Shown here: piece after piece, positions 5,141 to 43,369 of the stretch
How positions within the stretch are numbered: the stretch's first letter is position 1
Layout of the letters: every line of letters begins with the position of its first letter
IMG/VR virus record: IMGVR_UViG_3300031857_000053
Span: 43,267 to 107,266 of that record
Direction: 5' to 3' (one strand)
Length of the DNA stretch: 64,000 nt
Origin: a virus
Notes under the pieces: model-generated
What the model saw: only the letters and a program-made list of their open reading frames with translations
Databases searched by the model: none
What the model was told of the DNA's origin: nothing
Program-made: the position numbers and the translations under genes

Positions 5141-8100
5141 ATGGCAGATGTAATTTCAGAAGATATTAATTTATCTCTTCCAGATCCAGCAAATCTTGCA
5201 GCATCTGTTGCAGGTGGTGTAATGAATCCTCTTCTTAAAGAGTCTATTGATATTGATTTACCACAACCTCCTCCAAGATATCCAGTTGGTGTATCAGCAA
5301 CAAATATGATACCTACTCAGACTAATGCATTAACTGATTCTAATAGTTTAATAGAGCAAAGTAATAATAGTTTAGCAACAGCAAATCAATGGGCTCGTAA
5401 TCCATATCAATATGGTAAGTTAAAAACTTATAATGCTGATTCTGATGGAGCAAACTTTGCAAGATATGCAGCAGTACCTAGAGTGTTTAAAGAACAAGGC
5501 TTTTCTTTATATAGAGATAATGAAGCACTATATAATGAGAATGCTACATGGTGGGATTATTTTAAAAGAAGTGCCGGTGCATCTTGGGAACTATTTAAAA
5601 CAGGGTTTACAGATATGTTACCTTGGAATGCTTGGGATGGTAAATCATCAGATCTTGTAGCAGCAAAAGAGATGGAAAGATGGCACGCAATTGGTGCCGA
5701 TAGTAGATCTGGAGTAGGATCTTTTATAAATAATATGACAGTAGATTCTGGATACACTTTTGGTATTCTTGGTGAATTTGCTGCAGAAGAAATAGCTCTT
5801 TGGGGAGCAACAGCTCTTTCTGGTGGAGCTCTTGGTGAAGTTGCTTTAACAAGAACTGGTAAAAAAATAGATGATGTTATAGATGCACTTAGTATAGAAA
5901 AATTTAGAGCAAAAGTAAATAAAGCTTATGATTGGATGAAGAGTCCTGATAAGATGAAAGATATTTATAGTTATGCTAAAGGAACTCTTAAACGTGCTGG
6001 TAAAACTTTAATACCTCAAACAGGAAGTTTTATAGCTAATGATATCATTGCTGCTGGTAAAAAAGGAGATCTTGTTTTTAATATGGCAAAAGCTTCAAAA
6101 GGATTTGGCGCTTTTTACCGAGATAGTCGAGCTGTAGCTGCAGTTTTATCTGAAGCATCTTTAGAAGGTGGTAGTGCAGAACTCATGGTAAGAGATCAAT
6201 TGATTGATGGATTCTATGATAAAAACGGTAGACTTCCTAATGATAAAGAGATGTCGGCAATTTACAGTGAAGCAGCTAATGCTGGTAGAGAAACATATCT
6301 TTGGAATTTACCAGCTCTTTATATTTCAAATCAAATAGTTTTTGAAACAGCTCTTAAAGGATTTAAACCTGCTGCTGTATTTAGAGAGGAATTAAGAACA
6401 GGATTAAGTGGACGATTGGCTTTTAATGAAGCTTGGAAAAAAGCTGGTGTAAAAGCTTGGACTACTGTTGAAGAAGGAGCACTACAAAGTTTTAAAAATA
6501 TATTTAATCCTACTACATATAAACCTAAAAATCTTTTAAGAAATACTGTTGGTAAATTTGCTCTTTATACTAAAGAAAATTTAGCAGAAGGTTTACAAGA
6601 GGTATATCAAGATGCTGTTCAAAAGACAATGGTAGATTATTATTCTGCTAGATTTACGCATCCTGCTCTTTCTGGATCTAGATCTGTGTGGGGAGAGTTT
6701 GCAAAAAATATTGGTAATCCTAATTTAGAAACTTTTGCATCTGGATTTTTAATGGGATCTATGGTACAGATTCCACAAAAAATTGCTTTTAATTATTTAC
6801 CTAAACAATTTTATAAACTTACAAATAGAGCTGAGTATGATAAAAATATGGCTCTACAACAAGAGCATACCGATAAAGTAGTAGATGCTATGAATTATTT
6901 TACTATGGGTGAAAAGTATTATGATTCTATTAATGAAAATGCGGTAGTTCAATTAAATGGTAATGCTGAAGCTCAACAAGCTAATATGGCTGGTGATAAA
7001 AAAGCTTTTGGTGATATAACAGATGAGACAGAAGGAAATCACTTTATGACTTTACTTGAAAGTGGTAAATTAGATATTCTTGTAGATCAATTTAAAGATC
7101 TTAAAGGTCTTAATAAAGAAGCTTTAGAAGAAGCTTTTGGTCCAGTAGATAAATCTATAGCTGAAGATTCATATACATTTTATCAAAATAGACTTGATAA
7201 CATGATTAAGAAATCTGAACAATTAAAAAAATTATACGAGACTGCAGAAAGAGAAATAGGTGATGGTCCTTTTCATCCTAGTACAGTTGATGGAAAAAAA
7301 GATCCTAAATTATATGAAGCCATGATGCAAGGAGCTATTGCTCACAAGATGGCTAAAAGAGATTTTGTATTACAAAATTATTCTTTCTATAGAACTCTTC
7401 AGAGAGTAGATAGTCTTACTAATAATTTAGTTTCAAATAGTGAGTTAGCTAAAACATCAGCTTCAGATTTAATGTTAGCTACTTCTCCTCAATTGATGGT
7501 CGATGAAATAGCTATTACAAAAAAATTATTAGAAGGTTATAAAACAATTGAAAAAGATCCTGATAATAAATCAAAGATTCAATCACTTGAAGAAAGATTA
7601 GAATATCTAGAAGAATTACAAAGTGCAATAGAAGGTATTACAGTAGCTCAAAAATTAGAACCTAGTAGAGAATTAGGTACTCAAGTAAAAGAAATAGAAG
7701 ATGCTGATAAAGCAGCTAGAATAGATGAAGGTACTGTAGTTAAAAATAAAAAAGGAAAAGAGCATAAAGTATCTTATGTAAAAAAAGGTGATGCATATAA
7801 TAGTAAAGGTGAAAAAATTGGAAAGTTAAAAGATCTTGATATTGTTAGTCAACCGGAAGGCAAAGAGGAAAAAGATGCTATGACATATGCAACAGAAAGA
7901 TTATTCAATGCATATTCACAGTGGATGAAATACTCAGCTAAAGTAAATAACAATGATAATGTAACAGATAGAGCTATTGAAAAATCATTTGCTGATTTCC
8001 GAGATATTTATTTATTAAAACAAGATTCTAAATTTTTAGGTGAAACTATTCAAACTCTTTTAAATCCTAATTATTTTAGAGTATATACTGAAAGATTAAG

Positions 8101-10645
8101 AAATGTTATTGCTGATATAGATAAATCTCGAAAAACTTTATTAAAAAATTCTTATGAAAGATTTTTAAGATTAAGAAAGATGAATGATTTATTCAATCAG
8201 CTTTATGAGATGAAAGTTTTTTTAGATGAGAGAGGAATGCAAGATGTTTTAAATAATCGTGTTCCATCTATATTTTTTAATATTCCTAAAGCTAAAGATA
8301 GTATAACACCAGTATCTTTTGATTCTGAAAAATATAGACAGATCTTAGATTTATTTGAAAAATATGAACAAACATCTGGTAAGCAATTTGAAAATAAACC
8401 AATTGTTGAAGCAATTCCATTTATTAGTGAGACTATCAATTATAATATAGAGAATAGGGAAAAAGGAGAAGATAAAAGAACTTTAGCTGAGCATGCTGCA
8501 TATTGGGGATTTGATCCTGAGATGAAAACTATAACTTCAATTAAAACATTAGATGTTTTAAAAAAGATAGTTGATAGTCCTTATTCTACTTATAAAGAAA
8601 AAGCTTTAGCTAGAAGATTACTTACTATTGTTAAAGCTAATAGTGAAATAAAATTTGAAAAACTTTCACGTCCAAATAAAGCATTATATACCGATGAAGG
8701 AAAAATGGGAATGAGTGTAGATCCTAGATATTCATCTTCTGATTTTGGAATTACAAAAAACTTTTCATTACCTATTGAAGCAATTATTCTTAATACAGTT
8801 ATTAAGGATATTACAGCTTATGATATGTCAAAAAATCTTGCTTTTAAAAATGATGTTGCTAAATTATTTGAAGCAGCTAAAGAAGAATTTAAAAAGAATA
8901 GACCAGCGAATGCTACTTTATTTGGAGATAAAGTTGATTTTGAATTTTATGGTTTAAGAAATCAAGAAGATTTTGTAGCGGAAGCTCTTACTAATGATCG
9001 CTTTGCAACGTGGTTAAAAACTATTGATTATCAAACTACCGGTAAATCTGCGTGGCAAGAACTATTAGATATGCTTAGTCAATTCTTTGCAAAGATTTTA
9101 GGTATATCAAAAGATAATACTCTTTTAGATGAAGTAGTATATGTCGTTACTAAACATATTGATAAAATAGAAGGAGTTACTGAAGATAGTTTAGCTCAAG
9201 AAGCTAAATACAAAGCAGCAACTCAAGCTGGGACAAATGTTCCAGGTGGTATATCTAAAGATAGTACTATTAACGAACTTGCTGCAGCAGGTGTTTTAAA
9301 AGAACTTGTTGCTGATTACAAAAGAATTAATAGTGAGAGACAAGTTGTAGCTCCAGATTCTGTATACGATCCACTTTATGATCAGCGTCCAGAGTCAGAG
9401 CTTATTGAAACTGAAGGATTCAAAAGATATCTTGACTCTACATCAGCAAGTAATATTATTAGTGCTCACAATAGAAAGAAAGGTATTACTCCATCAACTA
9501 CAATAACTACTCCTACTACTACTCCTGTTTCTGATATAGAAGCTAAGAGAGCTGATATAGAAAAAAGAAGAAAAGAAAGTCTAAATGCTATTAAACAAAG
9601 ACCTAATGAAACTTTGTTTACAGCTCCTTATTATAAAGAAGGATATAATTTTAAACAGCTTCCTACAGACTCAGCTATGAGAACTGAAGCTGAAGAAAAA
9701 GAATATTATGAAATATTAAAAAACAATAATGCGTTAACTGATGTATCTATTCAAGTTAAAACTAGAGAGGAGGCTGAAAAATTAATCAACGCTAAATATG
9801 ATACAGAACTAGCTGCTTTAGAAAAAGCTCCTGTTACTACTGTTGATACAACACCAGTTAATAAAAGAACTAAAGAAAGACTTCTTACTAAAGGTTATAA
9901 TTATTCTGATATTGATAGTATGAATCAGCAACAAGCTGAAGCATTATTAGTAGAAGGATATACTAAGAAAGAAAAACTAGAAGCTATAGCTGCAGAAGAA
10001 GAATTGCAAAAACAAATTAAACGCGAAAAAGAATTACTTACTAAGGTTGAATTAATGGCATCTATTATAAAAGATATTAATGAAGCTGAATATTTAACTG
10101 ACCTTGCTGCTGTACAAAATAGAGTTTCAGATATTATTAATCGTACTCCAGGTGTTTTAGATATAAATGCAATAGAAAGAGGAATTGAGTCTAAGAAAAA
10201 ATCACTTAGTGCTAATATTGCTTTAGATAAAATGATTGTTAATGAGTTTATTAGATTAGATAACAATCAATTAGTAAAAGTAATTGAAATAAATAATAAT
10301 GGTATTAAAGTACAAACTACAGGAAAAATAGAAGATGGTGCTTCTCAAGTTGAATTTTGGATTAACAAAAAACAATTTGATAAAGATCAAAGAGAACCAA
10401 ATAAAAGATATGTTATGTATAAAGATCAACCAGGTATAGAAGAAGTCACAGGTATACCGGTAACTTCACAAGAAGATGTTGAATCTACAAAAGAGAATGT
10501 TACTAGTGCTAGAACATTAGTTTCTGATGAAGATTTACAAAATGAATTTAAAGAAGTAGAATCTCAAGAAATAGTTGATCTAGAAAAGGATTTTCTTGAT
10601 ACCTTAGATCAGTGTTTACCGGGTAGTCAACTTTCCATTTTTTAA
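5141..10645 (+). CDS. Giant virion cargo protein with degenerate zincin-like domain (1834 aa)
   Basis: A multi-region virion protein lying immediately upstream of the RNA polymerase gene. The first ~50 residues are Pro/Leu/Asp-rich. Residues ~130-560 contain Gly/Ala/Leu-rich helices (around 205-230 a possible hydrophobic helix pair) typical of phage ejection proteins. Residues about 1205-1320 resemble the zincin-like metallopeptidase region of phage polyvalent proteins: a segment at the usual HExxH place followed by the conserved FVAEAL element near 1277. Here the active-site segment reads VIKDITAY, so the catalytic His and Glu are missing. Residues 1400-1640 are low-complexity Thr/Pro/Glu/Lys linker. 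The gene begins after a purine-rich AAAGAGAG leader and ends 18 bp before the polymerase gene. The zincin reading is an inference from pattern. Confidence 0.7.
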   Translation: MADVISEDINLSLPDPANLAASVAGGVMNPLLKESIDIDLPQPPPRYPVGVSATNMIPTQTNALTDSNSLIEQSNNSLATANQWARNPYQYGKLKTYNADSDGANFARYAAVPRVFKEQGFSLYRDNEALYNENATWWDYFKRSAGASWELFKTGFTDMLPWNAWDGKSSDLVAAKEMERWHAIGADSRSGVGSFINNMTVDSGYTFGILGEFAAEEIALWGATALSGGALGEVALTRTGKKIDDVIDALSIEKFRAKVNKAYDWMKSPDKMKDIYSYAKGTLKRAGKTLIPQTGSFIANDIIAAGKKGDLVFNMAKASKGFGAFYRDSRAVAAVLSEASLEGGSAELMVRDQLIDGFYDKNGRLPNDKEMSAIYSEAANAGRETYLWNLPALYISNQIVFETALKGFKPAAVFREELRTGLSGRLAFNEAWKKAGVKAWTTVEEGALQSFKNIFNPTTYKPKNLLRNTVGKFALYTKENLAEGLQEVYQDAVQKTMVDYYSARFTHPALSGSRSVWGEFAKNIGNPNLETFASGFLMGSMVQIPQKIAFNYLPKQFYKLTNRAEYDKNMALQQEHTDKVVDAMNYFTMGEKYYDSINENAVVQLNGNAEAQQANMAGDKKAFGDITDETEGNHFMTLLESGKLDILVDQFKDLKGLNKEALEEAFGPVDKSIAEDSYTFYQNRLDNMIKKSEQLKKLYETAEREIGDGPFHPSTVDGKKDPKLYEAMMQGAIAHKMAKRDFVLQNYSFYRTLQRVDSLTNNLVSNSELAKTSASDLMLATSPQLMVDEIAITKKLLEGYKTIEKDPDNKSKIQSLEERLEYLEELQSAIEGITVAQKLEPSRELGTQVKEIEDADKAARIDEGTVVKNKKGKEHKVSYVKKGDAYNSKGEKIGKLKDLDIVSQPEGKEEKDAMTYATERLFNAYSQWMKYSAKVNNNDNVTDRAIEKSFADFRDIYLLKQDSKFLGETIQTLLNPNYFRVYTERLRNVIADIDKSRKTLLKNSYERFLRLRKMNDLFNQLYEMKVFLDERGMQDVLNNRVPSIFFNIPKAKDSITPVSFDSEKYRQILDLFEKYEQTSGKQFENKPIVEAIPFISETINYNIENREKGEDKRTLAEHAAYWGFDPEMKTITSIKTLDVLKKIVDSPYSTYKEKALARRLLTIVKANSEIKFEKLSRPNKALYTDEGKMGMSVDPRYSSSDFGITKNFSLPIEAIILNTVIKDITAYDMSKNLAFKNDVAKLFEAAKEEFKKNRPANATLFGDKVDFEFYGLRNQEDFVAEALTNDRFATWLKTIDYQTTGKSAWQELLDMLSQFFAKILGISKDNTLLDEVVYVVTKHIDKIEGVTEDSLAQEAKYKAATQAGTNVPGGISKDSTINELAAAGVLKELVADYKRINSERQVVAPDSVYDPLYDQRPESELIETEGFKRYLDSTSASNIISAHNRKKGITPSTTITTPTTTPVSDIEAKRADIEKRRKESLNAIKQRPNETLFTAPYYKEGYNFKQLPTDSAMRTEAEEKEYYEILKNNNALTDVSIQVKTREEAEKLINAKYDTELAALEKAPVTTVDTTPVNKRTKERLLTKGYNYSDIDSMNQQQAEALLVEGYTKKEKLEAIAAEEELQKQIKREKELLTKVELMASIIKDINEAEYLTDLAAVQNRVSDIINRTPGVLDINAIERGIESKKKSLSANIALDKMIVNEFIRLDNNQLVKVIEINNNGIKVQTTGKIEDGASQVEFWINKKQFDKDQREPNKRYVMYKDQPGIEEVTGIPVTSQEDVESTKENVTSARTLVSDEDLQNEFKEVESQEIVDLEKDFLDTLDQCLPGSQLSIF

Positions 10646-10663
10646 TTAAAAAACTATAAAGAC

Positions 10664-13600
10664 ATGATTTGTAATTTAGCTAATAATGAATCTTATAAAC
10701 CTTTCCGAAAATATATCTTTAAAAAGTTATCTCTAGCTCCAGAAGGTTTTACATTAGAATCTTTTACTAAAGATATCTATAGAAAAGTATATGATAATAC
10801 TACTGGTACTCCTGAAGATAAACATGCTAATGCTATTAATCATGTTGCAATAGGAACTATATTTTTAAATCGTATTCAAGCATTAGAACCTTCAGTTTAT
10901 GATACTATTAAAGATATAGATTTTAATAAATTTATAAAACTTGTAAATAATATTAGTAAATCAGAACCTGATTTTTCTTCATTAGAAGAAATGTTAGGTT
11001 TGAAAAATAATCCTGTTGAAGAACTTAAAGAACTTAATGCTGCAGCTGCTGAATCTAGAGATAACAGTACAGCGGGTATACAGATGACATTATTTGAAGG
11101 TAGCGATATTAAAGTTAACGAAGAAGATGAACCAGCTGATACCACAAATAATAATATGGTAACTGCTACTGAAGAATATCAAGGTAAAGATACTGTTCAA
11201 GCGGATCAAGATAGAGAAACTATAAATATAGATAATCCTAAATCTCCAGATTATTATAAAGCGAATCCTTTATATAGATTTTATTATAAAGTTAAAAGAG
11301 GTGTTTTAAAATTATTACAAAGACCAGGAACTAATTTTGATAGTTCTCAAATTACTATTCCTTATAATGGAAAGAAAGGTGTATACTTAACAGTAATGAG
11401 TTCTAGTAAATTAAGTAGAGATGATTTTAAAGAAGATCCTACAATAGGAGGTAGCAATGATAAAAAGTTTATTTACGATGCTGGTGAACCAGTGTTTGTT
11501 TTAACTGATGTAGATGGTATTCCAGTTAAGTTTAATGAAGAAGGTCAATTTGATGAAAATGGTAAATTATCTTATCATAAATTTAGAAATATTTATTCAA
11601 CTCAAGTAAAAGATGGTAAAGTTTCTTTATACAAAAGTGCTAATCTAAATGCTTTAGATGATGTAAAAAGAGTAGATCTTTTAAAACAAAAATTAATGAA
11701 GCTTAATCCAGGGCTTAGTGAAAAAAATGCTAAAGCTCAAGCTGAAAAAACAATACTTGATCAACTTCAAATTATATATGATATTAGACAAGCTCTTAAA
11801 GCTAATCCAAATTTAATAGTTAAGACTGTTATAAATGGTGGTTCAATGGGAGCTGTAAAAAAAGATATGAGTGTCAAAACACCTCTTGAGAATTTAACAA
11901 TAGGTAATAGAGATTTTACTATTTATGCTGTAAAAAGTGATAGCGAAAATTCTGGATACACTTATACTAACACTGATGCTACAGGTTCTTATGATGTTGA
12001 AATAACTCGTCCTGATATTAGTCAAGTTGAAGGATTAACAGATACAATTGTTTCTATATTATTTGATAAAGGTATAAGTAAAGATAAAGGAGTTTCAAAA
12101 GCTATTACTGCTGAAACTAGAAAAGAATTATTACAAAATTATATATTTACTAGAACTGAAGGTTTAGATATGTTTGTTAATGAAGATGGTGGGTATACTG
12201 TTAAAATAGGAGGACAAGAAATTTATAGATTAAAAAATAAAAATTATACTTCAGTTGAAGAAGCTGCTCTTCTTGAAAAAAGAAAAAGTGCTGAAAAATT
12301 AGTTCGAGAATATTTTACTACGCTTGCTCCTCAAGCTGAGATCTTAGAAAAAGATCTTAATGATGTTGACATGAAAAATATAATTGAAGGAACTATTGAT
12401 AAAGTTAGAGATCAATTTAAAAAAGGATATGTTTTTTATAATACAGAAAATAAAAAGTATTATAGAATAGGTTATCCTATACATCATATTAATGCTAAAT
12501 ATCAAAATGCTACTTATCCTGGTTTAACTCTTTCTAAAGAAGGAAACAATACAATATTTACAATTGATCGTAATGCTTCATATAATAACTATATAAAGAA
12601 AAATTTTACAATACCTTTTGAGTTAAATGAGAGTGGAGAGATTCCATCTCTTAATGCTTTTTATACTTATGAGTATGCTGAGGGTGAATTAAATAAAATA
12701 TATAAGCCAGCTGAATCTACATCAGCTCAACCATCTACTAGTGTTAAACCTGCTACTAGAAAAACATACTCTGGGAAAGTAACTAAGTTGACACTTAATC
12801 AAATATTTGTATTTGGAAGTAATCCTGAAGGAAGACATGGTGCTGGTGCTGCTAAAGATGCTAAAGATTTATTTGGTGCAAAGTATGGACAAGGAAGAGG
12901 GATGCAAGGTCAATCTTATGCACTTGTAACTAAGAATCTTAAAGCTGGATTTGTTGAACCTAGCACAGGTATAACATATAAAAAAGCAGGAGAAAAGAGT
13001 GTTTCAAAAGAACAAATAATTGAAAACATAAAAGAGCTATATTCAGTTGCTAAAGAAAATACAAATAAAGAATTTTTAATACCTGATTACTCTAAAAGCA
13101 ATCTTAATGGTTATACAGGTCAAGAAATGGCAGATATGTTTAGTGCTGCTGGACCTATACCAAATAATATTGTGTTTCATAAAAACTTTGATAAATTAAT
13201 TACTACTCAACCATCTACTAGTGTTAATCCATTAGTAGAAGCAGGAATTAAACCTTCTGATATGTTTGGTAATGCTGCTAAAGATATTCAGATGGCATCT
13301 GAATCTACTCAGTTTATTGGATTTGGTACAATAATGAAAGAAGGTAATGTATCTTCTACAGATAAATATGCTAAAGCTTGGGGTACTAAAGCTAATACAG
13401 GAGTGTATACAGCTGGTGATACTATAATGGTATCAGGAAGTGGTAACTTTGGTAGAGGAGGTGTTGATAAAACTGTTGAAGCACAAGCTATTAGAAAAAC
13501 ACTTAGTGAAAAATATAAACCTTTATTAGATAAGGCTATAGAAGCAGGTGCATCTTTTAGAATTGGTAATCAATATGCAAAAGGTAATTTGTCAGATCAA

Positions 13601-16600
13601 TTAGTTGCAGATTATTTACAAAAAAAGGGTTATACTGAAGAAAAACTTAATGGTTATTCTAGATGGGTATCTCCTACCAAAACTACTCAACCATCTACTA
13701 GTGTTAATAAAGGTGTAGAAATATCTTCTAATGCTAAAGGTTTAGCAGCGGCACTCACTAATCCTACAGAGTTAGCTAAATCAAAAGGTAATATTAAACA
13801 ATCTTATCCTATATATTTTCAATGGTTAGATAAAAATGGAGAAGTAAGAGATTCAAACTTTAAAGATGTTGAACAAGCTTATCAAAAATTAAAAGATAAT
13901 TCTGAAGCTAAAACAAAACCTACTAAAGAAAATAGTAATAATTATAAACTAATGGTAGATTTGATAAAAGCTAAATTAGAACAACATCCCAGATTAGTTT
14001 TAGAAATAACTAAACAAGGAGGTTCAGCTTGGATATTATCTTCTACACATCAACCAACTAAACAAAATACTGTTTGGGAAACAGGTGGACAAAACTGGTT
14101 TATTCAAGCTCTCAATGATGCTTATTTATCTACACAACCATCTACTAGTGTTTCTGTAGATACTAAAGCTGATATTACTTTACCTACTACACCTGATCAA
14201 CAAAATACTAATTCTATTGATCAAGCTCTTAATATTATTGATGATGCAATTAATAATTTTGATAAACTTAAAGCTTTAAAACTTATTGATCAAAAAGCTA
14301 CAGTAGAACAAATAGAAGCAGCTAAAAAGTGGTGGGAAAACCATCCTATGTCTAGTAAAATTCCGCTCTATGTTTTATTCAATGCTGTTAATACTAAAAA
14401 TCCAACATCAATTGCTAATTGGACATTAGATGGTATTACACTATATCAAGGTGCTGATTACTCTGATTTGTATCACGAAGCATGGCACGGGTTTACTCAG
14501 ATGTTTTTAACTAAAGAACAGAAAGAAAATCTTTATAAAGAAGTAGGAAAAAAATCTGGTGGTTTTACAGATTATAAAGGAAACTATACTTTATTTAAAG
14601 ATGCTAAACCAAAACAACTAGAAGAATATTTAGCTGAAGATTTTAGAAATTATATGTTATCTGGAGGTAAGAAGATTGCTGGTAAAGCTCCTGTTAGAAA
14701 TAAAATTTTTAAGTTTATTGCTGATATATTAGAATGGTTATTTGGAAATCTTACAAGAGAACAAATAGCTAATGGTACAGAAAGCTTAAGCACTATTCAT
14801 GACTTATATGAAAAACTTCGTGTAGGTAATCTTAGTGAGTATACTTTCTCTCAAAGCAATGCTCAATATGATAAGCTTAGTAAAGGAGAGATTTTAGCTA
14901 CAAGAAATACTGATAAACCTGTTGACGATATAGATACTAAAAACTATATCTTAAATATGGTTGATTCTTTTTTATCTCAATATGTTGATAGAGTTTCTGA
15001 AGGAAAAAGAAAAAAATATATTGCTAATGCTAGACTTCAAGCTGAAGCTAGAGGAGAAACTTTTGTAGAATCTACAGCAGAACTTTCATATAAATATACC
15101 GCAACATTATTAAAAACAGCAGAAGGTAGAAAGTTAGCTTATGGTTATGCTCAAGAAATGATTAAAGCTATTCATGATGGACTTGTATTATTACAACAAA
15201 ATGAAAGTAGTGAAATTATTCGTGCTAATAGAAAAAAAATAATTGATACTTTAAGTTGGACTTATAATAACTTTGGAGATATAAATAATCTTAAAAATAA
15301 TAAGATAGATAAGGAGGGTAGATTTCAAAATGTTATTGCGTTTCATACTGCTAAAAGTAGATTATTTACTAAACAAGAAAAAGAACTTTTCTTTAGTGAA
15401 GATGCGCTTAATGAAGAAGATTTATTTTTAATTGGAAGAGATGGTTTAGGAAGTGTAGGTGGTAATGAAAAATCATCTAAAGAATTAGCATCAGAAGATA
15501 TCCTTATTATGATGAATAGTTTACATGAGGTAGATGCTAAAGGTAATACTATATATGTAGAAGGAACTGAAGTTGAAATAGAAACTAAACAAGGTGTTAA
15601 GCTTAAGATAGGTGTACCTAAGCTTCAAGATTTTGATGTTACTTGGAATATTCTATCTAAGAAATTAGAAAATAATCAAGATGCTGAGAACATGTACGCG
15701 ATCTTAAGTGATCTTGCAAAGTCAAAACCTAATCTTCCATTTAAACAATTATTAAATAAACTTGGTCCAATAAAAACTGCGGGATCAGCAGAGTTTAGAT
15801 TATGGACTAATTTTTGGCAAACTTTTAATTTATCTAGAGTTGGTTTAGTATATACTAAAGTTAATATAACAACTAAAACAGAGAGTAAAGGTGAGGTTAA
15901 AGAATTAAATTTTGATAATTGGGAATTTACAGCTAGACCTACTAAAGCTACCACTAGTATAAATACAATTAAAAAAAATTGGGATTATGCTTTTAGAATG
16001 AAAGATAAAGGTGATTATATCGGTAAAGATTCTCTTGGACAAAATTATCTTTTATTAGATAAGATTTTAGAAGATTTTAAAGATAATATAAAAGGAAAAG
16101 AATTTGAGTTTTTTAAAGCAATAGGTATAGATTTTGATACAAATAATGAAGATATTCTTAAAGAAGTTTCTTCTAAAAATTCTTTAGATACAGCTAAAAG
16201 AATTTATAATATTATTAAAGCTTTATCTAATGCTAAATATAAAGAAGAACCTCTTATAGGAAAACCTAAATATACTATATATGCTCCATCTCAATTATTT
16301 AAAGAAATATATGAAATAGGTGAAGATAAACAATATGTTTGGAAAGATAAATTTGAAATAGATTCTCAAGGTAATAGACGTAAAGTAGGAACTGAAAAAA
16401 AATTTTTAGTAGATATAGGTTATAAAACATCAGGAGAAGGAACAAGATTTGATAACTTAGCTGAAATTCAAGCTGAGTATTCTGATAAATGGGGAACTAA
16501 TCAAGTTACAAATGCAGAAGGTAATACTCAATTTGATTTAACATTAAATAATTTTCTTACTGTTTTAAAGAATACACTTAATCAAGTACAAGATGTAAAA

Positions 16601-19600
16601 GATGCTAACGGCAAAGTTATTATACCTGCATATAAAGTTTTAATTAGTCTTCCATGGATGAGTAATTTAGATGTAGATAAAAATCCAGATGCTGAGTCTT
16701 CTATTTTATTAAATTCTTTATTTGATCTTAATAAAAATAGTACAAAATATGGTGAAAGAATAAAAGATGAAAAAACTAAATCTGGATATGTAGAAGTACA
16801 ATTAAAAAATCTTAGTGGAGTAGCATTTAATAAAGATGATGTTTATGATGAAAAGAAATCTACTTCTTTATTTAATTCAGATCCTTTAACAAAACTAGTA
16901 GCAGATTTTCATACTGGTTTGATGAATGGAAATTTTGAGTTAATGCGTCACTCAGATAAAGGAACATCTTTTAGTTTCTTTACTACTTCTTTAGATAAAA
17001 AGAATATTAATAATAGAAATAAATATTTATATGTTGATACTGCAGATTTTGTTACAAGTTTAGGAACAAAGAATGCTATTAATAAATATATTTTTCCAAC
17101 TTTAAATTCAGAATTTAAGCGAATAAAAAAGTTTAGAAATATTAAACAAGCAGTAGAAGATGCTAGAAAAGAAACTGATCCGGAAAAAAAGAAGGATATG
17201 TTTAAAGCAATTGGTAATACTGATTTTAATTATATAGAAAAAGGATCTTCTTTTGTAACATTTCAAGGTGTTTTATCTCCAGAAACTAAAGTAAAAATAC
17301 TTAAGCAACTAGATAAAAATAGTTTAACAGAATACTTAAATACTCCAGAAGGTTTTGAATTAAAAGTTGAAATTGGAAAAGATATTCAAAATTATTTTAA
17401 TAATCAAATTGAAGCTGTAAGTAAAAAGTTTCCTGTTAGAAGAAGTGGTGTTAAACTTATAAGTGGTGATATTATTAAAAAAATAAAAGATCATGTTACA
17501 GCTAATTATACTGAAGGATTAGGTCTTTCACAAACAGGAAAAGATATACTTAGAAATACTGATTTTAATAAAGTAGCTTTAAGATCTTTTGTAATTAATT
17601 CTTGGATACATAATACTGAAAGTATCAAATTAGTTTATGGAAACCTTGCTCAATATAATATGGCTAAGGAAGAATTTCATAAGAGAAATGCTGGTTCAAG
17701 TTCTACTGGTACACTTTATAGAACTGATAAAGCTGCAATGGATTATGTAAATAATATTCTTAATGGTGGTGATACATATGCTAAATCAATAGGACAAACT
17801 AATAGATATTATGATGGAACTCTTAATACAGCAATTGTACAAGATAGTGTTCAAAGATCTGTTTATATAGAAGATTATTCTAAAGACTTAATTGCTGAAC
17901 AATTAAAAAGAAATGGTGGAAATCAACGAGAAGCTGAGAAAAAAGTTTTTGGTTACGATGAAAAAAATAATAAAGTTGGTACTCTAGAAAAACCAATTAA
18001 GGGTGGATTAATTACAGCATATACTGATATGAAAGAAGGAGATGGTCAAGGTTGGGTAACTTTTGATTCATATAGAATGCTATTAAACTTAGAAGGTAAG
18101 TGGTCAGATTCACAAGAAAATTTATATCAAAAAATAGTAAAAGGTGAACAAGTTTCTAGTGCTGATATAGCTTTCTTTTTTCCTCCACAAAAGTTACAAT
18201 ACTGGGGACCTCTTGGTAACAGATTATCTGGTAAAGCTGCAATAGGACAAAAGATTAATTCTGATGTACAGCTTACAGCTATGCACAAGTTTTCTTTAGT
18301 ACCACTTATTCCTACTGTAATTAAAGATAAAAGAATTCAAAAGCTCCACGATAAGATGGTTCGAGAGCAAGTGGATTATGTAACATTTGAATCCGGATCA
18401 AAGATTAGTAATATTACAAGTGCTGAAAAGTTTGGAGAGAATGGCAAACAAACTTTTGATCTTTTTTACGCAGATAATAAGCGTAATATTAGTGAGGAAC
18501 CATTTACAATCAATCCTATTTATGTAAACTATTTAAAGAATCAGTTAGAGATAGCACCTAAGTTTAAAAAGAAAGTAACTTTTTCTACTCAGCTTAGAAA
18601 ACTTATTGAAGATGGTTTAGTAGAGAATGGTGTGCCAATTGATTTTGGAAGAAATTTATCTCGTGAAAAAAGAATTGAAGCTTGGGATGCTATTACAACA
18701 GAAGATGCTAAGATGGCCGCATCTCCTAAGTATAAGATCTATAAAACATATGAGAATAAATTAAAGAAACTTACCGAGCTTAAAAGAGATCAACTTTTAG
18801 AAGAGATGGGTTGGAAGATGGTGAATGGTAAACCAGTTGGTACAATAGAGAACTTAGTTAGATTTGTTAAAGCTGAATTAGAAAGACAAAATTTAGGAGA
18901 TCATGAAATAGATTTCTTAGATGTAGTTGATGGTGGTACAAAGCTTAAAACAGATGCTTCATTTTCTTTGTCTGCAGATAAGATTGAAAAGTTACTTAAT
19001 TCTATTGTAGTAAATAGATTGATCAAACAAAAAATTAATGGTGAAGCTTTAATCCAAGTATCTACTGCTGGTTATGAAAATAATGAAGCTTGGGATGCAG
19101 CAAGAGGTGCTACTGAAGAAGAGTTAGAAAAGTGGGGAACAGATGATCTTCCTACTTATAGAAAAGGAAAAGATGGAATTACTAAAGCAATGAAAGTGAA
19201 AGTTGCTTTACAAGGAAAGTTTTTATCTCTACTTAATCTTAATCATAATGATGGTCAAACTATAGCTGTTTATGATATTGTTAATGGTAAAAAAGTTCTT
19301 AATCTAGAATCATCTAGAACAAGACTTAATTCCATGATTAAAAATGAAGAGTGGTTAAATAAAGAAAATCATCGTAAGATGATTACTATGGTTGGTGTTC
19401 GTATTCCAGTACAAGGATTAAATTCTATGGAGTTTATGGAAGTATACGAATTCTTACCAGAGGAAGCAGGTAATATTATTATACCTCCAACAGAGATTGT
19501 AGCTAAATCAGGAGCTGACTTCGATATCGATAAGCTTACAGTGATGATGCCTAATATAAAAACCAAAATAAATAAAGCTAAAATTACTAATGCTTTATTA

Positions 19601-22600
19601 AGAGAACTTGGTGAAAAAAATCCAACTTTAGATTTTAGTAGAGATAATATTAATATGCTACTTGATTTTGAAAAAGGATCTGGTGGCGCATATACTCTTA
19701 CCGAAGAAGATTTAAATACACTTCGTATTCTAGAAGAAACTAGTGAAGTAAGTGTAGTTTATCCTACTGGAGATAATTCTATAGAAGGATTAGAGAATGA
19801 TCTTATTTGGAATATAAAAGATATTTTAGCATTGCCGGAAAACTTTGTTAATCTTATTACACCTAATAGTACTGATACAGTTCAACCAATTGCTACTAAA
19901 CTTGCACCTTTAGTTAAAGATTATGATCAGATGCAGAAAACAGCTGGTGATATTACTACTTTATCTAAAGAAGATCAAGCTTTATTAAATGAGAATCCTA
20001 ATGTGATGGAAGGAACTAGAGTATTGGAAATACTTTATAATATTTCTAAGCAACAGTATAATCAGATTGGTAAAGAGACTTTAGGTATTGGAGCTGTAGA
20101 TAATACTTTCAATATTCTATTGAATAGAATTGGAGCTTATATGAATGCTTATGCTACTGTAAAATCATTTAATGGTAAAAATAAAACTACAATTAGACAA
20201 ACATTAAAGTTTAAACATAATACTCTTAATATAAATGGTCAAGATGTTATTTCTTTATCGCATTTATACGATAATAATGATTTAAATAGAGTTTCAGATA
20301 TTATCTCTCAAATGATGAATGGTTGGGTGGACGTTGCAAAAGATGCTTGGATTTTTGATATTCAAGGTAACAAGGATCTTTCTCCTACACTTTTGTTTAT
20401 GATTCAAGCGGGTGTCTCAATAGAGAATGCTATTTATATGGTTTCTCAACCTATGGTAAGAGAATATATAAGATTAAAGAAGACCGCTCAAAGTAGTGTA
20501 TCAGATGTTATTACTGATGTTGATACTAAATATCCAGGTTTTGCAGCAAAGAAAATGATCATTGATAAATACTTTTCACAAGATGCAGATTTTGGTTCTC
20601 AAATTGCTGCAGCAAATGATATTATAAATGATGAAGTACGTGAAAAAAAATTAAATGCGATCTATGGTAATGTTAATGTCGCTAATACTAGTGCTGAAAT
20701 TATAAATAGAGTTTTTGGTGATAATGATATTGATACTAAAAAGATGGAAGAGAATATTCAAAAATATTCTGCTGCTGAAAAAAATGGAGAAGATACTAAT
20801 AAATTATTGTTTAATGATGAATATCAAAAAGCTATATTTTTACATTTCTTACAGATAGAACAGATGGGATCTGCTCTTACTAATGTTAAAAAGAATATGA
20901 ATTTTGACACTAAAAAAGATGCTAGTATCTATGAGGCACAAAATAGAATGGTTATGATTGATGCTCTTTCAAAAGAAGATCGATTCCCATCAAAGATGAT
21001 AGATAAACTTATTACAGATTCTCCTATATCAAGTTTCTATATACAAGAATTTCAAACACAGATTTGGGAAAAATTATTACCACTTCGAACTAATGAAGTA
21101 TTTAATAAATGGTTAAGTGGTAAGATGGGTGATCAAGACTTTAAAAATTATGTTGAAGAGAATTTTGGAGAAAATATGATGGAAAAAGCTATTCTTTCTT
21201 TGAGAAATAATCTTGTACCATATATATTTCAAAATGAACTTAAACAATTTGATTTAAGAACTTTAGATGGATATAAAGGAAACATAGTTGAAATAAGTGA
21301 AAAAGGAGAAACAGAACAAGAAAATCTTACTAAAAAACAACAAAAAGAAGGAGTTAGTGTTCTAAGTATTGGAGCTTTCTTTAAAGATGGAAAAATGTTT
21401 ATTGATAAAAAAAGTTTAGATAATCAATATAACAATGCTTCTTATTTAGGTAATGAAAATAGCACTTATAAAGAATTAGGATTAGCACCAGTTAGTGTTG
21501 GAACTTTTAGTTCTTTAAGCGAATATCATCACTTTGTAGTAGAGAGAGAATATCTTAGAAATCTATATAAGAATACAGATAATGTTAAAGATAATATAGA
21601 ATACAAAGAAGCTCTTAATGATGCTTTTGAAAAAAATCCAAAAGGAGAAGAAAGTGAAGATGCGTATAAAAAAAGAATAAGTAAAATTGCTTTTGAAAGT
21701 TTCTTAAGAGATAAAGCTTTAGATAATATATTTAATAATACAAAATTATTTACAGGGAATAAAACAGCTGCAGATAAATTAGGTTATATAAAATCTCAGT
21801 ATAAAGATCTTTTACAAACATATCCTGTATTACAAGTTCTTAATCCTTTATCTACAATATCTGCCGGTAAACTTTATTCTAATATACAATTACAAGATAA
21901 CTTAGATGATTCAGAAAAAGTTAATTCTTATTATAAAAATATTAGAGATCTAGCAGATCCTACCGTGGTAAAAGTTCCTGGAGATCCTGAAGCTAATAAA
22001 TATATAAGTGATTTCTTTACTAGTTTACCTATTATTGGAACATTACAATCAGGTTCTAATACTAAAACTAGATCTTCTTTTACTAGATTAATGCCTTATG
22101 ATTTATATCTAAGATTAATTGAAAAACCTGCTCAAAAATATGTTGAAAATATGAGTGATCTTTTATTAGATGTTTATTATTATAAGTGGTCTCAGCAAAA
22201 TTCAATCTTAAATAAAAATAAAAATAAGTTTGAAGATTATTATATTACTGAAATTACTTTAGATCGTCTTTTAAAAAGTTCTAGAAAAAATCTTGATAAA
22301 GTAGAAATAGAAAAACAAATTAGAGGTTTACAAGATAAAAATCAAAGATTTGGATTAAGAGAAACTGAAGATATTTTTTATAAACAACCTAGTGGAGCAA
22401 GTATACTTGATACATATAAACTACTTAAAAGAGATGATAAAGAAACTGATGAAAGCTATAATCCTAGAAAAGTTAAATATATGCGCGAGTTATTAGAAGC
22501 TAATCCTGATAAGATTTTTGTTTATAATAATGAGAAAGGTCTTGATAGATCTATACCTAAACAGGGAACATCAGATAGGTTATTTAGAAATCAAGGGCAA

Positions 22601-23038
22601 TCTAATGCTTTTGGATTGAATACTTATAATCAATATAATCTTACAGAAACTACTTTTATTAAAGATGTTGATGGTGATGTTAATCCTAATTTTAAAATAG
22701 ATTTTGATGCTCAAGTAAAAGAATTACTTCGTCTTCAAAATGAAGAAGGAAAAGAAATAGTTTTTCCATCATCTGGATTTTTACAAGAACAAATGGGTTA
22801 TCAATTAGAAGAATCTAATTCTTTAGGTAAGAATACTTATAGTTCTATAGTAGAAAAAAAATTAGGACAAAAAACTTACGAATATGCTTCTCAAGTTTTA
22901 TTTGAGAAATTTGGCTACGTTAATAGAAATTACGATATTACACCCATTGGAAAATTAGTAATAGGAGCTAAACAAAAAGAAAGTAAATCTATTAGTGATG
23001 AAATGGTTAGAGATTTAATGTCACATTGTTATTCATAA
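10664..23038 (+). CDS. Giant virion RNA polymerase fusion protein (4124 aa)
   Basis: This is the single-chain crAss-like virion RNA polymerase fused to several other domains. The catalytic Mg-binding loop DFDID is at residues 2952-2956, after the conserved PPTEIVAKSGA stretch; in characterised crAss-like polymerases this motif replaces the cellular NADFDGD loop. The enzyme is packaged and ejected and transcribes early phage genes. Other parts in order: N-terminal region (1-690); four QPSTSV linkers at 689, 849, 1009 and 1158 bounding three modules; the first module (about 710-845) with FVFGSNPEGRHGAGAA resembles A1S_2505-type phage proteins with a macro-like look; a zincin-like HEAWH at 1271-1275 with EEYLAED downstream; then the polymerase body to about 3300; and a long helical tail. 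At 4124 residues it is about twice the length of the structurally known phi14:2 enzyme. The core call is firm; the accessory domain calls are moderate. Confidence 0.9.
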   Translation: MICNLANNESYKPFRKYIFKKLSLAPEGFTLESFTKDIYRKVYDNTTGTPEDKHANAINHVAIGTIFLNRIQALEPSVYDTIKDIDFNKFIKLVNNISKSEPDFSSLEEMLGLKNNPVEELKELNAAAAESRDNSTAGIQMTLFEGSDIKVNEEDEPADTTNNNMVTATEEYQGKDTVQADQDRETINIDNPKSPDYYKANPLYRFYYKVKRGVLKLLQRPGTNFDSSQITIPYNGKKGVYLTVMSSSKLSRDDFKEDPTIGGSNDKKFIYDAGEPVFVLTDVDGIPVKFNEEGQFDENGKLSYHKFRNIYSTQVKDGKVSLYKSANLNALDDVKRVDLLKQKLMKLNPGLSEKNAKAQAEKTILDQLQIIYDIRQALKANPNLIVKTVINGGSMGAVKKDMSVKTPLENLTIGNRDFTIYAVKSDSENSGYTYTNTDATGSYDVEITRPDISQVEGLTDTIVSILFDKGISKDKGVSKAITAETRKELLQNYIFTRTEGLDMFVNEDGGYTVKIGGQEIYRLKNKNYTSVEEAALLEKRKSAEKLVREYFTTLAPQAEILEKDLNDVDMKNIIEGTIDKVRDQFKKGYVFYNTENKKYYRIGYPIHHINAKYQNATYPGLTLSKEGNNTIFTIDRNASYNNYIKKNFTIPFELNESGEIPSLNAFYTYEYAEGELNKIYKPAESTSAQPSTSVKPATRKTYSGKVTKLTLNQIFVFGSNPEGRHGAGAAKDAKDLFGAKYGQGRGMQGQSYALVTKNLKAGFVEPSTGITYKKAGEKSVSKEQIIENIKELYSVAKENTNKEFLIPDYSKSNLNGYTGQEMADMFSAAGPIPNNIVFHKNFDKLITTQPSTSVNPLVEAGIKPSDMFGNAAKDIQMASESTQFIGFGTIMKEGNVSSTDKYAKAWGTKANTGVYTAGDTIMVSGSGNFGRGGVDKTVEAQAIRKTLSEKYKPLLDKAIEAGASFRIGNQYAKGNLSDQLVADYLQKKGYTEEKLNGYSRWVSPTKTTQPSTSVNKGVEISSNAKGLAAALTNPTELAKSKGNIKQSYPIYFQWLDKNGEVRDSNFKDVEQAYQKLKDNSEAKTKPTKENSNNYKLMVDLIKAKLEQHPRLVLEITKQGGSAWILSSTHQPTKQNTVWETGGQNWFIQALNDAYLSTQPSTSVSVDTKADITLPTTPDQQNTNSIDQALNIIDDAINNFDKLKALKLIDQKATVEQIEAAKKWWENHPMSSKIPLYVLFNAVNTKNPTSIANWTLDGITLYQGADYSDLYHEAWHGFTQMFLTKEQKENLYKEVGKKSGGFTDYKGNYTLFKDAKPKQLEEYLAEDFRNYMLSGGKKIAGKAPVRNKIFKFIADILEWLFGNLTREQIANGTESLSTIHDLYEKLRVGNLSEYTFSQSNAQYDKLSKGEILATRNTDKPVDDIDTKNYILNMVDSFLSQYVDRVSEGKRKKYIANARLQAEARGETFVESTAELSYKYTATLLKTAEGRKLAYGYAQEMIKAIHDGLVLLQQNESSEIIRANRKKIIDTLSWTYNNFGDINNLKNNKIDKEGRFQNVIAFHTAKSRLFTKQEKELFFSEDALNEEDLFLIGRDGLGSVGGNEKSSKELASEDILIMMNSLHEVDAKGNTIYVEGTEVEIETKQGVKLKIGVPKLQDFDVTWNILSKKLENNQDAENMYAILSDLAKSKPNLPFKQLLNKLGPIKTAGSAEFRLWTNFWQTFNLSRVGLVYTKVNITTKTESKGEVKELNFDNWEFTARPTKATTSINTIKKNWDYAFRMKDKGDYIGKDSLGQNYLLLDKILEDFKDNIKGKEFEFFKAIGIDFDTNNEDILKEVSSKNSLDTAKRIYNIIKALSNAKYKEEPLIGKPKYTIYAPSQLFKEIYEIGEDKQYVWKDKFEIDSQGNRRKVGTEKKFLVDIGYKTSGEGTRFDNLAEIQAEYSDKWGTNQVTNAEGNTQFDLTLNNFLTVLKNTLNQVQDVKDANGKVIIPAYKVLISLPWMSNLDVDKNPDAESSILLNSLFDLNKNSTKYGERIKDEKTKSGYVEVQLKNLSGVAFNKDDVYDEKKSTSLFNSDPLTKLVADFHTGLMNGNFELMRHSDKGTSFSFFTTSLDKKNINNRNKYLYVDTADFVTSLGTKNAINKYIFPTLNSEFKRIKKFRNIKQAVEDARKETDPEKKKDMFKAIGNTDFNYIEKGSSFVTFQGVLSPETKVKILKQLDKNSLTEYLNTPEGFELKVEIGKDIQNYFNNQIEAVSKKFPVRRSGVKLISGDIIKKIKDHVTANYTEGLGLSQTGKDILRNTDFNKVALRSFVINSWIHNTESIKLVYGNLAQYNMAKEEFHKRNAGSSSTGTLYRTDKAAMDYVNNILNGGDTYAKSIGQTNRYYDGTLNTAIVQDSVQRSVYIEDYSKDLIAEQLKRNGGNQREAEKKVFGYDEKNNKVGTLEKPIKGGLITAYTDMKEGDGQGWVTFDSYRMLLNLEGKWSDSQENLYQKIVKGEQVSSADIAFFFPPQKLQYWGPLGNRLSGKAAIGQKINSDVQLTAMHKFSLVPLIPTVIKDKRIQKLHDKMVREQVDYVTFESGSKISNITSAEKFGENGKQTFDLFYADNKRNISEEPFTINPIYVNYLKNQLEIAPKFKKKVTFSTQLRKLIEDGLVENGVPIDFGRNLSREKRIEAWDAITTEDAKMAASPKYKIYKTYENKLKKLTELKRDQLLEEMGWKMVNGKPVGTIENLVRFVKAELERQNLGDHEIDFLDVVDGGTKLKTDASFSLSADKIEKLLNSIVVNRLIKQKINGEALIQVSTAGYENNEAWDAARGATEEELEKWGTDDLPTYRKGKDGITKAMKVKVALQGKFLSLLNLNHNDGQTIAVYDIVNGKKVLNLESSRTRLNSMIKNEEWLNKENHRKMITMVGVRIPVQGLNSMEFMEVYEFLPEEAGNIIIPPTEIVAKSGADFDIDKLTVMMPNIKTKINKAKITNALLRELGEKNPTLDFSRDNINMLLDFEKGSGGAYTLTEEDLNTLRILEETSEVSVVYPTGDNSIEGLENDLIWNIKDILALPENFVNLITPNSTDTVQPIATKLAPLVKDYDQMQKTAGDITTLSKEDQALLNENPNVMEGTRVLEILYNISKQQYNQIGKETLGIGAVDNTFNILLNRIGAYMNAYATVKSFNGKNKTTIRQTLKFKHNTLNINGQDVISLSHLYDNNDLNRVSDIISQMMNGWVDVAKDAWIFDIQGNKDLSPTLLFMIQAGVSIENAIYMVSQPMVREYIRLKKTAQSSVSDVITDVDTKYPGFAAKKMIIDKYFSQDADFGSQIAAANDIINDEVREKKLNAIYGNVNVANTSAEIINRVFGDNDIDTKKMEENIQKYSAAEKNGEDTNKLLFNDEYQKAIFLHFLQIEQMGSALTNVKKNMNFDTKKDASIYEAQNRMVMIDALSKEDRFPSKMIDKLITDSPISSFYIQEFQTQIWEKLLPLRTNEVFNKWLSGKMGDQDFKNYVEENFGENMMEKAILSLRNNLVPYIFQNELKQFDLRTLDGYKGNIVEISEKGETEQENLTKKQQKEGVSVLSIGAFFKDGKMFIDKKSLDNQYNNASYLGNENSTYKELGLAPVSVGTFSSLSEYHHFVVEREYLRNLYKNTDNVKDNIEYKEALNDAFEKNPKGEESEDAYKKRISKIAFESFLRDKALDNIFNNTKLFTGNKTAADKLGYIKSQYKDLLQTYPVLQVLNPLSTISAGKLYSNIQLQDNLDDSEKVNSYYKNIRDLADPTVVKVPGDPEANKYISDFFTSLPIIGTLQSGSNTKTRSSFTRLMPYDLYLRLIEKPAQKYVENMSDLLLDVYYYKWSQQNSILNKNKNKFEDYYITEITLDRLLKSSRKNLDKVEIEKQIRGLQDKNQRFGLRETEDIFYKQPSGASILDTYKLLKRDDKETDESYNPRKVKYMRELLEANPDKIFVYNNEKGLDRSIPKQGTSDRLFRNQGQSNAFGLNTYNQYNLTETTFIKDVDGDVNPNFKIDFDAQVKELLRLQNEEGKEIVFPSSGFLQEQMGYQLEESNSLGKNTYSSIVEKKLGQKTYEYASQVLFEKFGYVNRNYDITPIGKLVIGAKQKESKSISDEMVRDLMSHCYS
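12728..14152 (+). repeat. Four in-frame 18-bp direct repeats bounding three protein modules
   Basis: The 18-bp sequence CAACCATCTACTAGTGTT is present perfectly at 12728-12745, 13208-13225, 13688-13705 and 14135-14152. Start-to-start distances are 480, 480 and 447 bp, all multiples of three, and every copy encodes QPSTSV. The middle two copies match over about 27 bp. The segments between are unrelated in sequence, so the repeats are joints between modules, not the ends of a tandem duplication. Confidence 0.95.
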
Positions 23039-33822: not shown

Positions 33823-34860
33823 TTAAAGTAAGACATTGGTTGTTGCTAGCTCGTATGGAAGATCATATCTATTATTTGAATAGTGCCAATCTGCTTTCTT
33901 AAGTTCTTTCTCTAGGTTCTCCTCCCAAGCTTTCATTGTATTCTCTGATACACCAAAGCAATAACTTTGTTTGTATTTATCAATAACAATAAAAGTAAAC
34001 TTTATATCCCACTCATTAGGATCAAGACCATTTGCTAATAGAAATGTTTCCGTGACTAGTTTTTTATACAATGCTGCTTGTATCCATAGTTTGTAAAACT
34101 CTACGGTTTCAGGAAACTCGGATAATGTTTTAGATGTGGTTTTTAAGTCATTAATCTTAATGCTTTTATTTGTGCTATCTATAACTAGATTATCTAGAAT
34201 TCCTTTTAATCCGGTATTGCGAGACTCTTCCTTTTCTATTTGGATACCAAACTCATTGAATACTTGGCTATTTTCTCCAAGATTTAATTTTCCTAAGAGG
34301 GTCATTATTTCTTCATTTTCTTTGAGTTGCTCTACAATATCTACACATGCACTATGAGTTGGAAGATCTACGATACTTTTATCTTGCCGATTAAATAAAA
34401 ATTCGAAGTATTCTTGATGAGAGTCTGTTATAATTTTTTCTATTCTTTGCTCATCTGTTTTGAGTGATTGATAAAGGTTTACTTCTTTGAGGATATCAAT
34501 AATAGCATCTTTGTGATCTGATAATTGATTCTTTGCGGGCTCTTCGAATCCACCTACAGTAGTAAGATTAAGTTGAAGTTGGAATACTTGTTCGATAACT
34601 TTTTTTGGATTTTCGCTTGGTTGATTTCCCGGTAGAAGTATAAACTGATTTTTAAAATTATCAGGATCCAACAACAAGCAATGGATAAGTTTACCCATTA
34701 GCGTTGCTGAAGTTTCTACATCTTCCTTTTGTCCTAATATATAATGGTTATAAAATAGATTAGGTGAGTATAAAAGTTTATTTAAACTTGAATAACTAAA
34801 ATAAAAATCTTTTAGATAAAAGTTTTCTTCTGCTGTTTTTTGTTCTATTGTTTTATTCAT
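33823..34860 (-). CDS. PD-(D/E)XK superfamily nuclease (RecB/exonuclease VIII-like)
   Basis: A probable DNA exonuclease for recombination or end processing. The N-terminal FSYSSLNKLLYSPNLFY with TLMGKLIHCLLL (about 22-65) is the typical SSL/G-x-x-H start of Cas4/RecB/DUF3799-like nucleases. The catalytic core is around 215-240: GILDNLV gives the first Asp and INDLKTTSK the D-x-K motif; a downstream Gln/Tyr (KLWIQAALYKK) fits motif III. No four-Cys iron-sulfur cluster set was seen. It neighbours the Sak4-like and RuvC-like genes, consistent with a phage recombination module. Confidence 0.8.
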   Translation of the reverse strand: MNKTIEQKTAEENFYLKDFYFSYSSLNKLLYSPNLFYNHYILGQKEDVETSATLMGKLIHCLLLDPDNFKNQFILLPGNQPSENPKKVIEQVFQLQLNLTTVGGFEEPAKNQLSDHKDAIIDILKEVNLYQSLKTDEQRIEKIITDSHQEYFEFLFNRQDKSIVDLPTHSACVDIVEQLKENEEIMTLLGKLNLGENSQVFNEFGIQIEKEESRNTGLKGILDNLVIDSTNKSIKINDLKTTSKTLSEFPETVEFYKLWIQAALYKKLVTETFLLANGLDPNEWDIKFTFIVIDKYKQSYCFGVSENTMKAWEENLEKELKKADWHYSNNRYDLPYELATTNVLL

Positions 34861-42607: not shown

Positions 42608-43369
42608 TTAGTCAATATAAATTTTATCCCAATAAGTTATTAATCCTTCATCTGTCATCTCAGAGACAACAATTTCTTTGTTCCGTAAATGTTCTGGTCT
42701 TGCTCCACAAGATACTTCATCTGTAGTTTTAAAACTCAAAATATTTTGATCACCTTTTCTGTAAAGATAACCAATAGCATCAGATTGTGAACTGGTAATT
42801 CTTTTAAGTTTACCTGTTAGATCTAGATCCATACTATTAAAATCAGTTCCATTTTTCTCTAATAATACATCTTTGATATGTCCTATTAGAATTATTCTTG
42901 GAGCTAATGTTTTAATATACTCTATGATCTTGGTAAAAGCTTCTCTTAGCCATGGATATCCTGCTCCGTTGGGCATATTAAGTATTGTTCCATACTTAGG
43001 TTTCCCTTCTGTGAGCCAATTCTTTCCCATTGGTGTAGCTTGATATAACTTTTCAGCATAAGGAAGACACATTTCTTCTAAAGCAGTAATAGTATCTACC
43101 GCAATATATTTATATGGATTTCCACTTGCTTTGATTTCTTCTCCGTAATCTCTTATATCTTCCCAACTATTGATTTCTACCTTGAGTGCGTCTAAATACT
43201 TGGTTCCTTTTTCAAGATCCATTATTAAACAATTATCAAGTTGAGAAAATAAACTTGTTTTACCAACTTTTGGCTTGGAGAATATAATAAGATTAGAAGG
43301 ACTCTTTTGAGAAGCTGCTATCTTTGCTTTTGGTAATTCTATTACCCGTTTTTTTTCTTTTTCACTCAT
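42608..43369 (-). CDS. Sak4-like RecA-fold ATPase (AAA_24)
   Basis: A RecA-type ATPase for annealing/strand exchange or helicase loading. Walker A is FSKPKVGKTS (about 29-38); the acidic LIMDLEKGTKYLDA follows; Walker B is YIAVDTITALEEM around 102-114; and RIILIGHIKD supplies a sensor-like segment. This order (GxPKvGKT, D.E.G, .vDs.t, .i.iGH.k) is that of Sak4/AAA_24 phage proteins. It overlaps the upstream gene by 4 bp (ATGA) and lies next to the putative ssDNA-binding protein, its expected partner. Confidence 0.85.
   Translation of the reverse strand: MSEKEKKRVIELPKAKIAASQKSPSNLIIFSKPKVGKTSLFSQLDNCLIMDLEKGTKYLDALKVEINSWEDIRDYGEEIKASGNPYKYIAVDTITALEEMCLPYAEKLYQATPMGKNWLTEGKPKYGTILNMPNGAGYPWLREAFTKIIEYIKTLAPRIILIGHIKDVLLEKNGTDFNSMDLDLTGKLKRITSSQSDAIGYLYRKGDQNILSFKTTDEVSCGARPEHLRNKEIVVSEMTDEGLITYWDKIYID

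Follow-up and report, generated by a model that had tools for sequence, protein, structure and literature searches.

A repeated in-frame DNA joint at the borders of variable modules in giant RNA polymerases of crAss-like phages

The window, by which we mean the whole stretch of 64,000 nucleotides analysed here, is part of a virus record (G000) of 107,266 bp and contains a giant open reading frame in which the 18-nucleotide sequence CAACCATCTACTAGTGTT, referred to below as the joint, is present in four exact copies, all in frame and all encoding QPSTSV (Table 1). There is no copy on the opposite strand or elsewhere in the window when up to three mismatches are allowed, and the joint-to-joint spacings of 480, 480 and 447 nt delimit three modules (M1, M2 and M3) that fall into three separate families when module fragments are clustered. 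Joints 1 to 3 match over 22 nt, and exact repeats in the gene other than the joint reach 15 nt at most; when the codons of the reading frame were shuffled 200 times, no 18-mer was present more than twice. The first-pass annotation had described four perfect in-frame joints framing three unrelated modules of 143–154 residues, in a gene otherwise free of comparable repeats, and this description holds in every part. The codon shuffles, together with the record-wide census described below, in which a reversed control pattern gave zero matches, rule out chance as the origin of the repeats.

Table 1. Positions in the window of the joints, the modules, their host gene and candidate recombination genes.
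Feature	Position	Strand	Remarks
Giant ORF, crAss-like virion RNA polymerase homologue, host of the module zone	10664..23038	+	4,124 aa; DFDID motif
Insertion zone between two conserved polymerase segments	12656..14239	+	segments at aa ~665 and ~1192
Joint 1, CAACCATCTACTAGTGTT (QPSTSV)	12728..12745	+	aa 689; GCT directly before
Module M1, A1S_2505-family domain	12746..13207	+	154 aa; NF049995, phrog_2072
Joint 2	13208..13225	+	aa 849; 27 nt around the joint same as at joint 3
Module M2, without named family	13226..13687	+	154 aa; confident AF2 model, Rossmann-like but ambiguous
Joint 3	13688..13705	+	aa 1009
Module M3, putative NADAR-like fold	13706..14134	+	143 aa; VIA Z 8.0 to 8bau
Joint 4	14135..14152	+	aa 1158; ACA directly before
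Exonuclease VIII-like protein (phrog_412), candidate partner exonuclease	33823..34860	-	
Sak4-like single-strand annealing protein (phrog_124), candidate recombinase	42608..43369	-	

The identification of the gene as a giant RNA polymerase, also made at first pass, is backed by a phmmer match (E = 7.6e-23) to PDB entry 6vr4 (6vr4_A), the RNA polymerase of a crAss-like phage (phi14:2), with which it shares a homologous core and the DxDxD motif. The window's genome also encodes a crassvirus major capsid protein (PF23898, E = 8e-24). The phi14:2 polymerase is packaged in the virion and injected, according to literature cited in PMC7886860, and by homology the window polymerase may likewise be packaged and injected, with its modules entering the host along with it. 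As separate observations, the next giant ORF (23042-29923; 2,293 aa) has near its N-terminus, without a joint, a module related to family F02, whose members follow joints in relatives; and the C-terminal part of the polymerase ORF (~22480-22785) has weak similarity, below the cut-off (E = 0.0011), to DUF7831, the family to which two of the mobile module groups also belong.

M1 is a member of the A1S_2505 family (98.3 bits against the NCBIfam cut-off of 45) and also occurs as a free-standing small gene in many phages. Genes of Aeromonas, Vibrio, Cobetia, Shewanella and Bacteroides phages, as well as genes annotated as 'putative RNA polymerase' in crAss-like phages of the gut (Kolpuevirus frurule, cr112_1), have about 70–83% DNA identity to M1; the spread of these matches indicates that the M1 domain crosses host phyla. 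For M2, methyltransferase structures stand at the top of the list of structural matches with Z below 6, and no assignment is based on them. The fold of M3 appears to resemble NADAR: its AF2 model (pLDDT 88) aligns over 115 of its 143 residues with 8bau, a NADAR structure with ADP-ribose, the next row being at Z 3.0. There is no Pfam match for M3 itself, its hhalign comparison with a NADAR module of the relatives (F22) recovers a short motif only, and the NADAR profile scores a divergent F10 member of L189 at E = 0.0072, below cut-off. Foldseek searches with the M2 and M3 models gave no significant match, and PDB sequence profiles for M1–M3 nothing credible.

The joint also occurs in other genomes. 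When IMG/VR was scanned with the 18-mer, with A or G allowed at position 3, it was present in 45 stretches, nearly all as in-frame QPSTSV inside giant ORFs, the sole exception (L006) being a chance match in an 11-codon frame. Among joint-aligned loci the five upstream bases are also conserved (C in 44, T in 49, A in 50, C in 51 and T in 52 of 53), giving a core of about 23 bp beyond which identity vanishes on both sides. The whole-record census, with two mismatches allowed, counts one to seven copies per record, clustered and on one strand only. The largest number is in L223 (G045; also L070), where seven in-frame joints lie in one ORF, at 6135-9540, and six of them are a single common variant (CAATCATC...), while L209, a close relative of L223, has the canonical form; this pattern may point to homogenisation inside the genome or to replacement of the joints en bloc. 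The joint 20-mer has no match in GTDB contigs (bacterial and archaeal genomes), an alignment search did not find the joint in the named phage isolates of INPHARED, and no description of it was found in the searchable literature, where QPSTSV returned unrelated papers only.

Most of the ORFs that carry joints are polymerase homologues, many of them aligning over long distances with the window polymerase at about 22–36% amino acid identity, while others match it only near the catalytic motif or nowhere, some of these others being short contig-end pieces. The crassvirus capsid protein was found in 17 of the 48 joint records. In most relatives the module zone lies after the polymerase core; it lies before the core in the window and in those ORFs (L184, for example) in which a homologue of the ORF upstream of the window polymerase (5141-10645) is fused to the polymerase. 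Most of these loci were discovered through the joint itself, and the joint-independent part of the comparison consists of the module scans and 29 further relatives found through the polymerase or a module. The joint is missing from 26 of these 29, and many module boundaries in relatives are decayed joints or other T/Q/P/S-rich linkers. In L071 and L072, M2 is present at 90% amino acid identity to the window with no joint at either end, which could reflect either exchange via other borders or decay of the joint. The presence of M2 in L071, and the 26 joint-free relatives, indicate that the joint is not needed for a module to be present.

Several lines of evidence bear on whether the joint is conserved for its nucleotides or for its peptide. 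The chance that TQPSTSV would be written as the joint's 21-mer is 0.004 per copy under the codon use of these ORFs. When synonymous versions were scanned, with serines allowed as TCN and AGY, the exact 21-mer was found in 48 places; other copies in giant ORFs are off by one or two nucleotides, and matches with three or more differences are all unrelated sequence. A further scan with the second serine as TCN, the form that codon use would favour, gave at least 120 matches, and among those listed none lies in a crAss-like giant ORF. Among 18-mers common to the joint-selected loci, the joint is present in 39 of 46, while no unrelated 18-mer does better than 9, a comparison biased by the selection; because the loci were chosen by the joint, comparison of synonymous sites in modules with joint identity is not counted as proof either. 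At the level of sequence comparison, the joint is conserved as DNA and not merely as protein. It has no inverted repeat and no common fold or hairpin, which rules out a hairpin or attC-like site.

The fragments flanking the joints fall into about twenty recurring module families, and 74 joints yield 65 distinct neighbour pairs of these families. They include an AlkB-type 2OG-Fe(II) oxygenase, NADAR, SLOG/cpYpsA, two DUF7831 groups and the A1S_2505-family domain, together with several without a name. The order M1-M2-M3 was not seen outside the window's virus among the relatives compared, and in L087 and L093 M1 is followed directly by M3 through a different linker. The cassette-type shuffling within a virion protein that had been suggested from the window is borne out by comparison to the extent that relatives do not keep the same three modules in the same order, and differ in modules, number and order; its other element, exchange mediated by the joints, is one that we infer.

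Exchange of modules is marked in the DNA. Joint-bearing loci share blocks of at least 85% nucleotide identity, and of the 166 ends of these blocks 76 are no more than 30 nt away from a joint; with ends distributed uniformly over the ORF, 2.2 would be expected. When the distinct ends of blocks of module size are counted, 45 are at joints and a further 16 at decayed joints, and many of the remaining 24 are outside the ORF altogether. Such blocks, 86–99% identical and ending at the joint, are present in phages whose polymerase cores are often only 23–60% identical. The F05 module, for example, is 97–99% identical over about 500 nt in L192, L198, L200 and L214, whose cores are 24–34% identical; between L200 and L214 the values are 99.4% over 503 nt and 24% amino acid identity in the core. 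The window's M2 has counterparts in the C-terminal arrays of L223 (89.9% nucleotide identity, core 29% amino acid identity) and L227 (88.1%, core 34%), and both ends of the shared blocks are at the joint in both genomes. The module-sized transfers at 97–99% identity between highly diverged phages are recent.

Whole arrays differ in the same manner. L209 and L223 have flanks that are 93–96% identical on both sides and contain two and seven modules, respectively, between them, and L200 and L213, with flanks 91–97% identical on both sides, have two different modules each. L059 represents an empty site: it aligns to amino acids 1-685 of the window polymerase and resumes at amino acid 1186, with a linker of about 20–30 residues between. 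The only close relative of the window, IMGVR_UViG_3300031758_000049, matches it without a difference over 12,801 nt (window 8336-21136), so that no exchange is observed in the window's own recent lineage.

The reading that we prefer, at a probability of about 0.8, is that crAss-like phages use the joint as a standard in-frame DNA adaptor, through which effector cassettes are exchanged by means of shared short homology. Each effector module of the polymerase would carry the near-invariant 18–23 bp CTACTCAACCATCTACTAGTGTT at its border, and because the same border sequence is on many modules and phages, crossover could occur between any two joints at co-infection, adding, dropping or swapping whole modules with the reading frame kept. 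The recombination would be of the short-homology annealing type, probably carried out by an exonuclease and an annealing recombinase that the phage itself encodes. Every exchange would copy the joint and drifted joints would cease exchanging, which would explain the frozen codons. The Sak4-like and exonuclease genes of the window are the grounds on which we infer short-homology recombination at the joints, and other exonucleases are also encoded in the genome. Sak4-like relatives are present in 16 of the 48 joint records, many of which are fragments; at G044:C1:9922-11489 the gene is seemingly split, one of its pieces containing an in-frame TGA. Sak4 anneals single strands (PMC5928155), and recombinases of this kind are tied to phage mosaicism (PMC5499656). 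The exchange described here is like that mosaicism in that relaxed short-homology exchange would give rise to mosaics in phages with a Sak4-like gene, but differs in occurring within one gene, always in frame and at a repeated standard sequence.

Other explanations of the same observations must be weighed. The joint could be the recognition site of a dedicated crAss-like phage recombinase or endonuclease, with exchange being site-specific rather than by general short homology, and the near-invariant DNA core with its sharp decay on both sides, the frozen codons, and the accumulation of up to seven copies in one genome, among them six that represent the same variant, are all features that such a site might have. 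We consider this unlikely, however, as the joint lacks an inverted repeat or common fold, variants with one to four substitutions remain at module borders, and no integrase or resolvase family match was seen among the window-genome proteins scanned (part of the ORFs). It is also conceivable that shuffling is real but rare and old, and that the identical joints were merely carried along from a single donor family that spread recently, and do not promote exchange. This would accord with the ascertainment of loci through the joint and with the many borders that have none, but we think it quite unlikely given that the modules next to joints are of about twenty unrelated kinds and the cores divergent, with identity limited to about 18–23 nt, and that the nearly identical module-sized transfers between diverged phages are recent.

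A role in the protein alone, with the joint kept as a linker that is flexible or is cut by a protease, and with modules exchanged without its help, would suit its location between folded domains and the other T/Q/P/S-rich linkers at the same borders in relatives. The frozen synonymous codons and the breakpoints at the joint on the DNA level speak against it; the codon analysis largely rules out a protein-only linker, and we regard this explanation as very improbable. Finally, all of the data are metagenome assemblies, and short repeats might produce chimeric contigs, but the arrays recur in many independent metagenome records with intact ORFs of 2,500–4,700 aa, the repeats are far below the usual assembly k-mers in size, and the two records of the window's virus are identical, such that an assembly artefact is hardly credible.

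Integron gene cassettes and polymorphic toxin cassettes (for polymorphic toxins, PMC3482391) combine a fixed adaptor with a variable payload, and the joint system does likewise. It differs from them in that the joint has no folded attachment site, no integrase was found among the window-genome proteins scanned, and the payloads are domains within one ORF, in arrays that are mid-protein or C-terminal. A further parallel is offered by the polyvalent proteins that Iyer et al. (2017, PMC5512222) described from phages and conjugative elements: these too unite numerous effector-type domains in a single, very long chain, and they are predicted to reach the host cell together with the genome. That paper mentions small cassettes that recall polymorphic toxins; the words linker and shuffling are absent from it. 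The window polymerase combines at least two effector domains (A1S_2505 and NADAR-like) in one phage polypeptide, as polyvalent proteins do, and relatives have effector-type modules that are AlkB-like, SLOG, DUF7831 and NADAR; like polyvalent proteins, it may be delivered into the host with the genome. Unlike them, its modules are on a virion RNA polymerase, with one DNA joint across divergent phages. Large multidomain proteins are known in the crAss transcription gene block (Yutin et al. 2021, PMC7886860), and the available part of that account says nothing of exchangeable modules bounded by a fixed DNA joint. Phage NADAR, SLOG and related domains, described as typically stand-alone, are proposed to counter NAD/ADP-ribose-based immunity (PMC9503650), whereas here domains of these types are embedded in the virion polymerase, and the modules may act against NAD/ADP-ribose-based host defences.

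A broader possibility, which we regard as rather improbable, is a dedicated, order-wide recombination system of the Crassvirales with a fixed in-frame DNA site, a specific phage enzyme acting on it and a common pool of virion-delivered counter-defence domains that divergent phages share; if true, this would give combinatorial arsenals inside one protein. Our preferred reading, the in-frame adaptor exchanged by short homology, would mean domain shuffling inside a single phage gene via a standard DNA adaptor among viruses with core proteins down to 23% identical, and would explain how giant crAss-like polymerases gain effector domains. One query of 18–23 bp would then be a handle with which to catalogue the pool of modules delivered with the virion, several of which belong to NAD/ADP-ribose biology, and it would become directly testable whether evolved recombination sites, lying in frame, can steer phage mosaicism.
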